Assembly: GCF_009695635.1 (NCBI RefSeq)
Contig: NZ_VUNN01000004.1
Location: forward strand, 1 to 64,000
Source: Bullifex porci
Lineage (GTDB): Bacteria; Spirochaetota; Spirochaetia; Sphaerochaetales; Sphaerochaetaceae
Reading direction: 5' to 3'
DNA length: 64,000 nt
Part shown: positions 52,357-57,463 of the stretch, piece after piece
How the letters are laid out: each line of letters starts with the position of its first letter
How positions within the stretch are numbered: the stretch's first letter is position 1
Made by a program: the position numbers and the translations under genes
Notes under the pieces: generated by a model
What the model was told of the DNA's origin: nothing
The model's input: only the letters and a program-made list of their open reading frames with translations
The model's database searches: none

Positions 52357-53544
52357 TTAAATATTATCGTTTAAATAATCTAAAGCATATGCAACATGCA
52401 ATTGTGTTGCAACCTCGAGACACCTTTCATCAATATCAAAAGATGAGTCGTGATGGGCTAAAGTTGTTTCCTTAATATTAGGATTACCAGAACCTACATA
52501 TGCATAACAGCCAGGAACCTCAATATTAAACTCTGCAAAATCATCACCACCAAGAGAATACTTACGATTAGTAATTACATTATCACTGCCAAATAGCTTT
52601 GTAGCTACTAATTGAACCTCATGGGTAGGTACTTCAGGATTAATAAGAGGAGCAGTAAAATCTTGATACTCAATAGAAGCTTCACCACCATATATCTTAG
52701 CAGTATTTTCAGCCAAAGCCTTTAGCTCTGCTTTAACCTGGCTTCTAATTTCAGGGTACATTACTCTGATAGTTCCCTCTAAAACAGCCTCACCCGCAAC
52801 AATATTGTATGCAGTTCCAGCTACTATCTTACCGATACCGATAATAACTGAGTCTGTTGGATTAGTCCTTCTTGTAACTAATCCTTGTGCCCCTACTGTT
52901 ATCATAGATGCTATATAAACAGCATCAATTCCTAGCTCAGGTGTTGATACATGAGCGCAAGATCCATTTACCTTTATCTTAAAGTAGTCAACAGAAGCAT
53001 TATTAGGACCAGCAGTTGCAGAAACTTTTCCACATTCAATATTTGAAGCTAAGTGAATGCCAAAGCAACGATCACCTTTAACTAAACCCTCATTAACAAA
53101 GATATTAGCGCCATAACCTATTTCCTCTGCCTGCTGGAAGCAAAAGGCTATTGAGCCTTTTATATCATCCTTATGATTTACAAGGATTTTTGCAGCACCC
53201 AAAAGTGCAGCAGTATGAGCATCATGTCCACATGCATGCATCTTTCCATCATTTACACTTTTATATGGACACTCATGAGTCTCTGTTATTGGAAGAGCAT
53301 CGATATCAGCACGTAATATTAATGCCTTACCAGGCTTTGTACCCTCTAATAGTGCATATACACCTGTTTCTCCAACTCTTCTTGTGTTAAGCCCAAGCTT
53401 ATGAAGCTCCTCTTCAATAAACTTTGCTGTTTCATACTCTTCTCTAGGGAGCTCAGGATGGGTATGCAAATAACGACGAAGAGAGACCAATTGGTCCCTC
53501 TCCTGTGAAACTTCTTTTTTTATTGTTTCAATTGAATAACTCAT
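52357..53544 (-). CDS. M20-family amidohydrolase (hippurate hydrolase/N-acyl amino acid deacylase type)
   Basis: Metallo-hydrolase of 395 residues. HACGHDAHTA (about 106-115) and QQAEEIGYGA (about 140-149) hold the metal ligands, and a C-terminal His lies in LAHHDSSFD. The family removes acyl groups from amino acids. Its ATG overlaps the stop of metQ by one base, so it is co-translated with the methionine-binding protein. A role in freeing methionine or cysteine from N-acetyl or N-formyl forms is therefore likely, but substrate specificity cannot be read. Confidence 0.87.
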   Translation of the reverse strand: MSYSIETIKKEVSQERDQLVSLRRYLHTHPELPREEYETAKFIEEELHKLGLNTRRVGETGVYALLEGTKPGKALILRADIDALPITETHECPYKSVNDGKMHACGHDAHTAALLGAAKILVNHKDDIKGSIAFCFQQAEEIGYGANIFVNEGLVKGDRCFGIHLASNIECGKVSATAGPNNASVDYFKIKVNGSCAHVSTPELGIDAVYIASMITVGAQGLVTRRTNPTDSVIIGIGKIVAGTAYNIVAGEAVLEGTIRVMYPEIRSQVKAELKALAENTAKIYGGEASIEYQDFTAPLINPEVPTHEVQLVATKLFGSDNVITNRKYSLGGDDFAEFNIEVPGCYAYVGSGNPNIKETTLAHHDSSFDIDERCLEVATQLHVAYALDYLNDNI

Positions 53545-54449
53545 TAGTTCTTTCCTGCAAGTTCTTTAAGAGCATCAACGCTAGTTACTTTCTTTGAGTA
53601 AAGTGAAAGTGGAGCAATTAATGTATCACCGATTGCTTCAATCTTATATCCGTTAGCATTTATTTCCTTGTTTAAGTAAGCTTTATGCTGGAAAGCATTG
53701 AGGTTAATATCACCGTTATTTAATGCTTCATTAGGAAGGTTATAAGCATCAAATTCAACACGTTCGATGTAGATATTCTCTCCTCTTTCATCCAATATCT
53801 TCTGTACTGCATTCCAGTACTCATTAGCAGCACCACAAACACCAACCTTAACAATTGTCTTACCTGCTGATGATGAAACATAGTTATCAACTACATCAAG
53901 AACATCTGGATATTGTACTGTAGCGCTATCATATTTAAATGCTGGGAAGTAAGCTTCCTTATATTTTGCAAGGAGGTACTCTGCAACAAGTTCTGTCTGG
54001 TATGCAGAAATAATCTTCTTATAAACAGGATTATCTTTTTCACTTGAGCGAGCTACGATGATATTTACAAATGGATTATTACCACCCTCATCCTGTGTCT
54101 CAATTAAGATAGCATCCTTAGAAGGAACTAAGCCCGCTGATGTGGCATATGTTCCGTTAATTGTTGAGGCACCAAAGTCATCGAGTGTTGAGAAAAGTGT
54201 GTTTGCTGTTGTTGGTACAATTTCAATATTGTAGATGTACTTTGTTACATCCTTAATCTCAGGTGAGTAGCCAACAGCTGGATCAACTTCGATTAAGCCC
54301 GCTGTTTCAAGGAGCTTAATTGCTCTTGCTTGGTTTGTTGCATCATCAGGAACACCGATTTTTAATGCAGCCTTTTCAGAAGCGCCACCAGCAAAAGCTG
54401 AAGTTACGATTAATAAAGAGATAAGTGCAAAAGCTATAAGTTTTTTCAT
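53544..54449 (-). CDS. metQ: Methionine-binding protein MetQ/NlpA, apparently circularly permuted
   Basis: Periplasmic binding protein of the MetNIQ importer, 301 residues. The signal peptide (about 1-20) ends SAFAGGASEK without a lipobox. In normal MetQ the order is VGV ... DYVLPNEAL..GDIDANAFQH ... YSKKIKSLDEL, then VPNDPTN..GR ... AGLIKL ... INTTYA ... KD. Here the second half comes first (GVPDDATNQAR at 31-42, AGLIEV 50-55, INGTYATSAGLVPSKDA 97-113, NPFVNIIVAR 125-134) and the first half follows (KVGV 201-204, AYNLPNEALNNGDINLNAFQH 235-255, YSKKVTSVDAL 284-294). A linker at about 172-198 joins the old C- and N-termini. All key motifs are kept, so function is probably kept. AAAAGGA precedes the ATG. 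Confidence 0.85.
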   Translation of the reverse strand: MKKLIAFALISLLIVTSAFAGGASEKAALKIGVPDDATNQARAIKLLETAGLIEVDPAVGYSPEIKDVTKYIYNIEIVPTTANTLFSTLDDFGASTINGTYATSAGLVPSKDAILIETQDEGGNNPFVNIIVARSSEKDNPVYKKIISAYQTELVAEYLLAKYKEAYFPAFKYDSATVQYPDVLDVVDNYVSSSAGKTIVKVGVCGAANEYWNAVQKILDERGENIYIERVEFDAYNLPNEALNNGDINLNAFQHKAYLNKEINANGYKIEAIGDTLIAPLSLYSKKVTSVDALKELAGKN

Positions 54450-54699: not shown

Positions 54700-55419
54700 T
54701 TAGATATTATCTTTTTTGTAAATTTTATGTATAAAGGTTCTATTTGTTGTTTTCTTTGCTACAAATGAACCAATGGCTTGGATTATACAAACTGCGACAA
54801 GAAGTACTACAACACAAACATTAACGATATCAGGGTGTCCTTGACCTTGACCATAGTTAATTGCAAAGGAACCAATACCACCAGCACCTACTGCACCAGC
54901 CATTGTAGTTAGCCCAACTAAGCTAATAGCTGTAATTGTAGTTACTCTAGCAAGCTCAGGAACTGCCTCATGAAGATAAACTCTAAATATAAGACCAAAT
55001 ATTCCCGAACCCATTGCTCTAGCAGCCTCTATCTTTCCAGGTGAAACATTTGCTAAAGCTGTTTCTACCTGTCGAGAGAAGAAAGGTACTGTACCAAAAA
55101 TTAAAGGAATTACTGCACCTCTTACGCCAATAGCTGTTCCAACAATTAAGCGTGTAAAAGGAATTAAGAAAATTAGTAATATTACAAATGGAATAGCTCG
55201 AAAAATATTGATAATAGTATCAATTATTCTAAAAATAACTGTATTTTGTTTAATACCACCCTTCTTTGTAATAGTAAGAACCACACCAAAGAAGATACCT
55301 AAAATAAATGATATGATACCTGGAATTAAAAATAGAGACCAAGTATCTAATAAGCTTTGGATGAAACGTGTTCTATATGCCCAAATATTTGGAGCTACTG
55401 TTTTAATAAAATTTTCCAT
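54700..55419 (-). CDS. metI: Methionine ABC transporter permease MetI
   Basis: Inner-membrane permease, 239 residues with five helices. The EAA loop reads KIEAARAMGSGIFGLIFRVYLHEAVPEL (about 128-155) and the MetI-type SLVGLTTMAGAVGAGGIGSFAI follows. The ATG at 55417-55419 overlaps the metN stop by one base and is preceded by GGAGG; a TTG one codon upstream is in frame. It forms the transporter with MetN and MetQ. A second Met-rich leader lies 58 bases downstream, before metQ. Confidence 0.93.
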   Translation of the reverse strand: MENFIKTVAPNIWAYRTRFIQSLLDTWSLFLIPGIISFILGIFFGVVLTITKKGGIKQNTVIFRIIDTIINIFRAIPFVILLIFLIPFTRLIVGTAIGVRGAVIPLIFGTVPFFSRQVETALANVSPGKIEAARAMGSGIFGLIFRVYLHEAVPELARVTTITAISLVGLTTMAGAVGAGGIGSFAINYGQGQGHPDIVNVCVVVLLVAVCIIQAIGSFVAKKTTNRTFIHKIYKKDNI

Positions 55420-56489
55420 CAAACTGCCTCCACTCTTACCTTTGTAGCACTAAGATATGTAAGTGCTGCATCTATTGCTTTATCCTCTCCTGAGAGCTTT
55501 ACAATCATGGCACCAATAGTTTGGTCTCCGATTGCTTCAACATTTGCGAGGATAATATTAAAGTCGACATTAAACTTTCTTGAAACCTCAGAGATAACAG
55601 GATTATTAACACTCTTATCAAAGACTAAGCGATAGAGTCTACTCTCTCCTGCTTGTGATTTAACAAGAGGGGAATCCTTCTTAACAAGTTCATCAACCTT
55701 TGAGAGAGATGATGTTGAGTTAACAAACTTGCGTGTAATAGGCTGCTTTGGGTTAGAGAAGATATCATATACTCTTCCTTCTTCAACTACCTTACCCTTC
55801 TCCATTACAGCTACACGGTCACAAATAGATTTAATAACACCCATTTCATGTGTGATAACAACAATTGTTACTCCTAACTTCTTATTTAAATCCTTTAAAA
55901 GGTTAAGAATAGATTCTGTAGCATCGGGATCAAGAGCACTAGTTGCTTCATCGGAAAGTAAAATCTTAGGGTTATTAGCAAGAGCTCTTGCAATTGCAAC
56001 TCTCTGCTTTTGACCACCTGAAAGCTCACATGGATAAGCATTTACCTTTGACTCAAGGCCAACTAGCTCAAGAAGCTCAAATACTCTATCGTGAATTTCT
56101 TTTTTACTCTTTCCTGTATATTTTAGTGGATATGCAATATTATCAAATACATTTGATCTATCAAGAAGATTAAAGTGCTGGAAGATCATACCAATTGAGC
56201 TTCTAAGCTTATTTAAGCTCTTTTCAGAAAGTCTTGTTTTCTCTCCATCCTTAACTAGAAAAAGCTTTTCATTATCAATTTCAATCCTTGTTCCATCGAT
56301 AGTAACAGCACCTATATCAGGAGTCTCTAAGAAGTTAATACATCTAACTAATGTAGACTTACCTGCTCCGGAGTAACCAATAACTCCATAGGTCTCTCCC
56401 TTTTCAATCTTTAGAGACACATCCTTAAGTGCTTCTACAGTACCGGCCTTAGTCCTAAAGATTTTAGTCACATTCTCAATCTCAATCAT
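55419..56489 (-). CDS. metN: Methionine ABC transporter ATPase MetN with NIL regulatory domain
   Basis: ATPase of 356 residues. Walker A is GYSGAGKST (about 38-46), signature LSGGQKQRVAIARAL, Walker B ILLSDEATSALD. Between Walker A and the Q-loop there is an insertion (IEIDNEKLFLVKDGEKTRLSEKS...), longer than in E. coli MetN. The C-terminal 80 residues (from about 275) are a NIL domain, which binds methionine and inhibits transport when the cell has enough. AGGA precedes the ATG. The gene follows a Met-rich leader ORF and a terminator, so transcription is probably attenuated. Confidence 0.94.
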   Translation of the reverse strand: MIEIENVTKIFRTKAGTVEALKDVSLKIEKGETYGVIGYSGAGKSTLVRCINFLETPDIGAVTIDGTRIEIDNEKLFLVKDGEKTRLSEKSLNKLRSSIGMIFQHFNLLDRSNVFDNIAYPLKYTGKSKKEIHDRVFELLELVGLESKVNAYPCELSGGQKQRVAIARALANNPKILLSDEATSALDPDATESILNLLKDLNKKLGVTIVVITHEMGVIKSICDRVAVMEKGKVVEEGRVYDIFSNPKQPITRKFVNSTSSLSKVDELVKKDSPLVKSQAGESRLYRLVFDKSVNNPVISEVSRKFNVDFNIILANVEAIGDQTIGAMIVKLSGEDKAIDAALTYLSATKVRVEAV

Positions 56490-56500
56490 CTAATCCTCAC

Positions 56501-56529
56501 AAAAAAAATGGAGAGCTCCTAGGCTCTCC
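56501..56529 (-). terminator. Attenuator terminator in the metN leader
   Basis: Seven-pair stem GGAGAGC/GCTCTCC (56510-56516 with 56523-56529), six-base loop, and then eight bases of U on the minus-strand RNA (56501-56508), with one A between. It is a textbook Rho-independent terminator placed 27 bases after the leader-peptide stop and 12 bases before the metN ATG. GGCUUUUC in the leader ORF (56566-56573) can pair with GGAGAGCC, the 5-prime arm, as an antiterminator. Confidence 0.88.
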
Positions 56530-56555
56530 GTTATCCGTTTTTATTTACTTGCTTA

Positions 56556-56633
56556 TCACAGACAGGAAAAGCCCTCGGTTTTATCCAGGGACATCATCAT
56601 AGACATGCACATGTAAAATCTAAAGCTATACAT
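56556..56633 (-). CDS. Methionine-rich leader peptide upstream of metN
   Basis: A 25-codon ORF starting MYSFRFYMCMSMMMSL and ending with TGA at 56556-56558. AGGA (56640-56643) lies six bases before the ATG. Six of 25 residues are Met, five of them within a seven-residue stretch (codons 8-14). The end of the ORF encodes GFS through GGC TTT TCC, which doubles as an antiterminator strand against the terminator at 56501-56529. The core YMCM-SMMM is shared with the leader before metQ. A ribosome stalled on the Met codons would leave the antiterminator free; one that reaches the stop would cover it. Confidence 0.8.
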   Translation of the reverse strand: MYSFRFYMCMSMMMSLDKTEGFSCL

Positions 56634-56677
56634 TATATTTCCTATCCGAAAAATAGATTGCAATAATTCTTGATATG

Positions 56678-56683
56678 TGTCAA
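56678..56683 (-). promoter_or_regulatory. Possible -35 box of the metN leader promoter
   Basis: TTGACA on the minus strand about 45 bases before the leader ATG. At 17 bases downstream the -10 candidate is poor (CAATCT), so this assignment is weak. Confidence 0.35.
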
Positions 56684-56932: not shown

Positions 56933-57463
56933 ATGGTTACCCTTGTTAAAGCAAATAAGAAGCTTGCTCCACTAATTTTAGATTACTACATAAGAAATAG
57001 AGAGTTCTTAGCTCCATATGAAAGTAAAAGAGATGATAATTTCTTTACACTTTCTTCTATAGAGCTTCTATTAAAGAATGCAATAAAAAATGAAAAGAAT
57101 GGAACTGGTGTTAGATTTTATATCACTCTTGATAATAAGGTTATAGGAACTATTGCGTTAAATAATATTGTAAGAGGGTGCTTTCACTCATGCTTCTTAG
57201 GTTATAGCTTAGATAAAGATTATATTAATAAAGGGTATATGACAGAATCTGTAAATGAGGTCATTCATTATGCATTTGAGGTAATAAAGCTTCATAGAAT
57301 TGAAGCTAATGTAATGCCTAAAAACATTGCATCTAAAAGAGTTTTAGAAAAATGTGGCTTTATAGAGGAGGGGTATTCTAAAAATTATTTATACATCAAT
57401 GGAGTATGGGAAGACCACATACACATGGTAAAGTTCAACCCAACTCCACTAGAAATACTTTAA
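56933..57463 (+). CDS. GNAT acetyltransferase (RimJ/RimL-like)
   Basis: N-acetyltransferase of 176 residues that uses acetyl-CoA. The fold is seen in ITLDNKVIGTIALNNI, the LGYSLDKDYINKGYMTESVNEVIHYAF block (acetyl-CoA pyrophosphate region) and NIASKRVLEKCGFIEEGYSKNYL, which is typical of RimJ/RimL ribosomal-protein acetyltransferases and their relatives. No strong Shine-Dalgarno is visible. Its stop abuts the asnB stop from the other strand. The substrate is unknown. Confidence 0.85.
   Translation: MVTLVKANKKLAPLILDYYIRNREFLAPYESKRDDNFFTLSSIELLLKNAIKNEKNGTGVRFYITLDNKVIGTIALNNIVRGCFHSCFLGYSLDKDYINKGYMTESVNEVIHYAFEVIKLHRIEANVMPKNIASKRVLEKCGFIEEGYSKNYLYINGVWEDHIHMVKFNPTPLEIL

Follow-up and report, generated by a model that had tools for sequence, protein, structure and literature searches.

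A probable trp-type attenuator with a methionine-codon leader peptide ahead of the metN operon of the spirochaete Bullifex porci

How might a spirochaete control a methionine importer whose genes are preceded by a short, methionine-rich reading frame and a terminator? Methionine genes are classically under SAM riboswitches, T-boxes or DNA-binding proteins. We addressed this question in the window, i.e., the whole 64,000-nucleotide stretch of Bullifex porci DNA analysed here (contig NZ_VUNN01000004.1, positions 1 to 64,000), whose minus strand carries metN (55419-56489), encoding a methionine ABC transporter ATPase with a C-terminal NIL domain (PF09383), followed by the permease gene metI (54700-55422), metQ for an apparently circularly permuted substrate-binding protein (53544-54449), and a gene for an M20 family amidohydrolase/peptidase (52357-53544), the last gene of the conserved block. 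The MetN, MetI and MetQ identities are those of the best Pfam and NCBIfam matches, with scores below the NCBIfam cut-offs. The gene at 56933-57463 is divergent, so that no upstream gene ends at the terminator on the metN side.

The reading frame in question is a 25-codon ORF on the minus strand (56556-56633; MYSFRFYMCMSMMMSLDKTEGFSCL and a stop codon), with Met at codons 1, 8, 10, 12, 13 and 14, Cys at codon 9, and an AGGA Shine-Dalgarno sequence at 56640-56643 (minus strand), in full agreement with an earlier note that had described a 25-codon frame with AGGA, six Met codons and one Cys. Its regulatory codon run, Met8-Cys9-Met10-Ser11-Met12-Met13-Met14 (56592-56612, minus strand), thus clusters five codons for the operon's own amino acid within seven codons before metNIQ; the run is DNA-identical in the related genome G006 and has one synonymous change in G004, with Tyr-Met-Cys-Met kept in G466 and G476 of a second genus, g3. 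The presumed operon promoter consists of a minus-strand -35 hexamer, TTGACA (56678-56683), which is a consensus match only and is not counted by a stricter promoter scan, and a -10-like CAATCT (56655-56660, minus strand), 17 nt from the -35 and ~21 nt before the leader ATG. TTGACA also precedes the leader in G004, G006, G466 and G476, and CAATCT is also present in G006, G466 and G476. Judged by sequence, a short translatable ORF between promoter and first gene is kept in six genomes.

The RNA of this leader can be drawn with the 1:2, 2:3 and 3:4 architecture of trp-type attenuators. On the minus strand, a 1:2 hairpin (CCCUGGAUAAAACCGAGGG, 56572-56590) has its region 1 directly after the Met triplet; region 2 (GGGCUUUUCCUGUCUGU, 56558-56574), the 5' strand of the antiterminator, reaches into the stop codon; region 3 (ACGGAUAACGGAGAGCCU, 56521-56538), its 3' strand, overlaps the terminator 5' arm; and the 3:4 terminator hairpin (GGAGAGCCUAGGAGCUCUCC, 56510-56529; GGAGAGC, 6 nt, GCUCUCC; -12.8 kcal/mol) is followed by a U8 tract (56501-56508), bearing out the Rho-independent terminator with eight U reported before metN in the earlier note. 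An intrinsic terminator also precedes the first gene in G004, G006, G466 and G476; a U-tract terminator was not found before metN in a third genus, represented by G404. The eight-base pairing that had been proposed between the leader and the terminator arm is likewise present, with GGCUUUUC at 56573-56566, but it understated the antiterminator, which in the predicted fold comprises 16 bp (9+7: GGGCUUUUC:GGAGAGCCU plus UGUCUGU:ACGGAUA), and the 1:2 hairpin after the Met triplet had been missed.

We then compared ribosome states, with the footprint assumed, in line with general knowledge, to extend ~13 nt beyond the first base of the codon in the A site. In both the window's genome (G000) and G006, RNA folded unconstrained and with no ribosome adopts 1:2 together with 3:4, RNA with a ribosome covering its bases at Met14 forms 2:3 and loses the terminator, and RNA with a ribosome at the stop codon forms only the 3:4 terminator; from region 2 onward, the antiterminator fold reaches -20.0 kcal/mol versus -12.8 for the terminator alone. 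A single base separates the last Met codon from region 1, which a ribosome stalled at that codon would therefore mask. The trp-type logic suggested in the earlier note is in this way supported by unconstrained folding in three ribosome states.

The predicted switch differs in strength among the relatives. Shuffled sequences matched the 2:3 duplex in 23 of 1000 cases for G000, 0 of 1000 for G004 and 9 of 1000 for G476, and for G466 the duplex is not better than shuffles (107/1000 as strong). In G004, nascent RNA lacking the 3' arm favours the 2:3 helix (-18.7), but 2:3 wins only before that arm is made; because the terminator stays the minimum free energy structure when the full-length sequence is folded from region 2, co-transcriptional timing would have to decide. 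A mutually exclusive antiterminator is predicted at 16 bp in G000 and G006 and as weak in G466, and the masking of 1:2 by a ribosome on the regulatory codons is predicted throughout g1 (the genus of the window's genome) and is borderline in g3, where the start of the last Met codon lies 14 nt upstream. The modelled g3 switch is weak, with a short 2:3 duplex in G466 and G476 and nascent RNA that favours an alternative local hairpin.

Taken together, these features make it probable that transcription of the metN-metI-metQ-M20 operon is governed by a trp-type, ribosome-mediated attenuator, with the charging of elongator tRNA-Met as its signal. The evidence is wholly computational and consists of the leader's anatomy, its preferred folds, its conservation and covariation, and the genomic context; from these we infer ORF translation, stalling, termination and the methionine response. 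RNA polymerase would start ~15 nt before the leader ORF, with a ribosome following. With ample Met-tRNA, the ribosome would reach the stop codon and cover region 2, allowing 3:4 to form and transcription to stop before metN; with scarce Met-tRNA, it would stall on codons 12-14 and cover region 1, blocking 1:2, upon which region 2 would pair with region 3 over 16 bp, no terminator would form, and the import genes would be made. If no ribosome loaded, 1:2 and 3:4 would form and lead to termination. Methionine shortage also lowers initiator fMet-tRNA and could limit translation of the leader itself.

To assess conservation, we searched the genus g1 (16 genomes including that of the window; two congeners are in the public record as Spirochaetales bacterium SUG382, L065, and SUG1819, L102) and its family (139 genomes). 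An orthologous metN was found in three of the 16 genus genomes (G000, G004 and G006), all three of which have FYMCMSMMM and a terminator. G000 and G006 have the same DNA at codons 7-14 and 21-26, and eight amino-acid changes fall in codons 3-5 and 15-19, with the 1:2 hairpin intact despite the changes in 15-19. Elsewhere in the family, the same metN clade occurs in G466, G476, G485, G444 and G404. G466 and G476 carry the leader MRKNTYMCMCL(T/I)LPNRD and a terminator, keeping YMCMC with only two Met after the start; in G485 the contig ends just before the leader, and in G444 metN lies at a contig end, in an operon where an M20 gene precedes it, such that a leader further upstream would fall outside the contig. 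All five g1 and g3 sequences can form the 19-nt 1:2 hairpin: in an ungapped alignment, 97% of cells pair, against 33-49% in slid controls, with changes on both sides at two of seven pairs, and when the free positions are shuffled, as many pairs as observed arise with P of 0.01-0.09 per sequence. With only five sequences from two genera, the covariation supports the 1:2 structure short of proof.

The third genus has a Met leader that, by its sequence, appears independent of those in g1 and g3. In G404, MRNTNAMSMMMCLSMMPSRA and a stop codon stand behind AAGGAGG and before the same operon, with one Cys and, not counting the start, six Met. We sought an antiterminator or a pairing that sequesters the ribosome-binding site in G404; the pairing of leader to ribosome-binding site (-19.7 kcal/mol) is no better than shuffles (226/2000 as strong). 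The MetN tree places the g1 and g3 leader carriers together (93/87) and G404 apart, a topology with which one origin followed by losses and two origins are both compatible. The carriers amount to six genomes, mostly fragmented assemblies, and may represent two independent lineages. The earlier note had named relatives without the ORF or its Met codons as evidence that would count against it; every genus member with an orthologous metN keeps the leader, and beyond the genus, g3 has the shorter form and the third genus its own Met leader. A clear Shine-Dalgarno sequence is absent from the G004 leader. In G004, G466 and G476, the leader ATG follows a -10-like hexamer by 7-9 nt, and by analogy with Streptomyces leaders these three may be translated from leaderless mRNA.

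Searches for other methionine control placed the leader in context. No metE match was obtained in the 12 genomes searched, which include that of the window, and no metH match in the g1 and g3 leader carriers searched, so methionine auxotrophy is probable in the leader-carrying g1 and g3 genomes; this gene content suggests that they depend on imported methionine. SAM-I riboswitch and T-box control would do the same physiological job, also by transcription attenuation, and both are absent from the window: no Rfam model matched over its gathering score anywhere in it, including at the leader, and a permissive scan of the leader gave no T-box (RF00230) match. SAM-I (RF00162) is above cut-off in 19 of 138 family genomes, with no such element in genus g1, and was not found in G000, G004, G006 or G404, nor at the operon leader. 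Members of g3 carry it elsewhere, as in G477 (L143; 61.8 bits), followed by a metK-like gene. Among relatives in other spirochaete families with the same metN clade, no Met leader was found. Palindromic, operator-like sites (CCTACTAACTTACTAGG and ACCTAGTATGCTACTAGGT) lie directly before metN in five loci of another spirochaete family (L120, L121, L122, L128 and L129); their sequence, in place of a leader, suggests a DNA-binding regulator there instead. In L132 (genome G276), a 34-codon ORF ending in NFRNGIMRPCLFVQF and a stop codon, with a CGGAGGT site, lies ahead of metN, ~230 nt short of where the region read ends on the metN side, and is possibly a different leader.

Several other explanations for these features can be weighed against the same data. 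That the locus combines an ordinary terminator with a meaningless ORF by chance is hardly credible: Met-rich frames do arise by chance elsewhere, and several of our pattern matches were such, but in the window the leader is the single ORF with five or more ATG among seven codons, and 0 of 90 simulated windows (30 each at Markov orders 1, 2 and 3) contained an ORF so clustered. These statistics, the conservation and the covariation contradict chance, and no upstream gene needs the terminator. A switch in which a protein or small molecule acts on the 1:2, 2:3 and 3:4 elements of an untranslated RNA would account for the conservation of the RNA elements and for the lack of a clear Shine-Dalgarno sequence in G004; we nevertheless regard it as very unlikely, as there is no Rfam match, the open frame is kept in all six leader-carrying genomes, and both the Met clustering and the AAGGAGG of G404 point to translation.

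Translation of the leader would also permit signals other than tRNA-Met charging. The nascent peptide could arrest the ribosome through a ligand (free methionine, SAM or an antibiotic) in the style of TnaC or Erm, and the core FYMCMSMMM is indeed invariant in g1; the peptide differs strongly between genera, however (YMCMCLTLPNRD; AMSMMMCLSMMPSRA), while its Met richness persists, so that codons fit better than a fixed arrest sequence, and we consider peptide arrest improbable. We are less dismissive of, but still doubt, a reading in which the same attenuator senses cysteine, or methionine and cysteine jointly. Tyr-Met-Cys-Met is the most conserved part of the five leaders, Cys9 is invariant in g1 and g3, Cys codon 10 is the one nearest to region 1 in the YMCMC-containing g3 leaders, and a Streptomyces lividans leader, metL, ends in CMCRRMCAF (PMC8079986). 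Yet in g1 the codons at which a stalled ribosome would cover region 1 are the Met triplet 12-14, G404 has one Cys against six Met beyond its start, and the operon is of the methionine type.

If the leader does read methionine codons as proposed, it shares with the trp, his, thr, ilv, leu and phe leaders of Proteobacteria a short ORF with a run of cognate codons, the 1:2/2:3/3:4 alternatives and a terminator before the structural genes, but differs from them in its Met codons, downstream importer genes, spirochaete host and unrelated sequence. A 2010 survey recorded leader-peptide systems as then known only in Proteobacteria and Actinobacteria, adding bacilli, where hisS genes have histidine leaders (PMC2965389), and a survey of Actinobacteria reported that methionine operons have no conserved RNA structures upstream (PMC1262725). 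The leaders of cys operons in Mycobacterium and others likewise have ORFs with runs of sulphur amino-acid codons, but there the Cys codons are near the stop and no terminator hairpin was found (PMC1262725). The closest published precedent we found is metL of S. lividans (MSTTSDRTPATEATTTPGARCMCRRMCAF), a predicted attenuator upstream of metNIQ whose short ORF includes both Met and Cys codons (PMC8079986). It is leaderless, with two Met and three Cys codons after the start; its authors found no typical Rho-independent terminator, unlike the spirochaete leader, which has one, and the part of the source consulted gives no comparative evidence (PMC8079986). The precedent is thus weaker and terminator-less, but the class itself is not new. 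The expectation in the earlier note that a Met-codon attenuator in a spirochaete would be new therefore stands in part, since our literature search, which covered few subscription journals, found no methionine leader attenuator in spirochaetes, and is softened by metL.

As a tentative proposal that we do not favour on balance, methionine would here have its first complete trp-type attenuator and spirochaetes their first leader-peptide attenuator, with an initiator twist whereby mild shortage would open the operon and severe shortage close it. If this were true, the sensed amino acid would also be needed to start the leader, with internal Met stalling opening the operon and 1:2 plus the terminator closing it. 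A methionine codon-reading attenuator would fill a gap in the list of ribosome-sensed amino acids, in a host outside the phyla where leader peptides have mainly been described. One bacterial class with the same transporter under seemingly different means of control also makes a good case for studying regulation swapping.

We also searched more widely for leaders of this kind. In the whole genome, ATGNNNATGATGATG occurs six times, and of the six in-frame stretches only the present one can be recognised as a leader ORF followed by a terminator and metN. Of the pattern MCM-x-MM, 26 other matches in the phylum were judged unrelated (overlap with phosphoglycerate-kinase-like coding sequence, frames of other genes, and non-leader ORFs), and 58 contig stretches with the pattern reduce to G004 and G006, the remainder lying mostly inside longer frames and none being leader-like. 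In most other genus members, the MetN found falls in another clade (~48% identical) and has no Met leader, and MetN-A relatives in f3, f8 and f29 have none either. Three f29 loci (L168, L169 and L171) have Met/Cys-rich frames ~260-290 nt upstream; these appear to be out-of-frame readings of the end of the upstream gene, precede another terminator and promoter, and were rejected. A covariance model of the five leaders, run against 395 genomes of the class, found nothing convincing beyond the known members; its three weak matches (E 0.0009-0.007) have no metN leader and were taken as chance.

We also observed an unusual arrangement in the substrate-binding protein of the operon. MetQ appears circularly permuted: after its signal peptide comes a part matching MetQ residues ~106-257, followed by one matching 33-129; an AlphaFold model of this permuted protein had a pLDDT of 45 and was not used. 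The apparent permutation is also seen at L065:6556-7464 and in L139 and L141. G004 shows the same order, and the MetQ proteins of G466 and G476 start alike, while that of G404 begins in the normal order.
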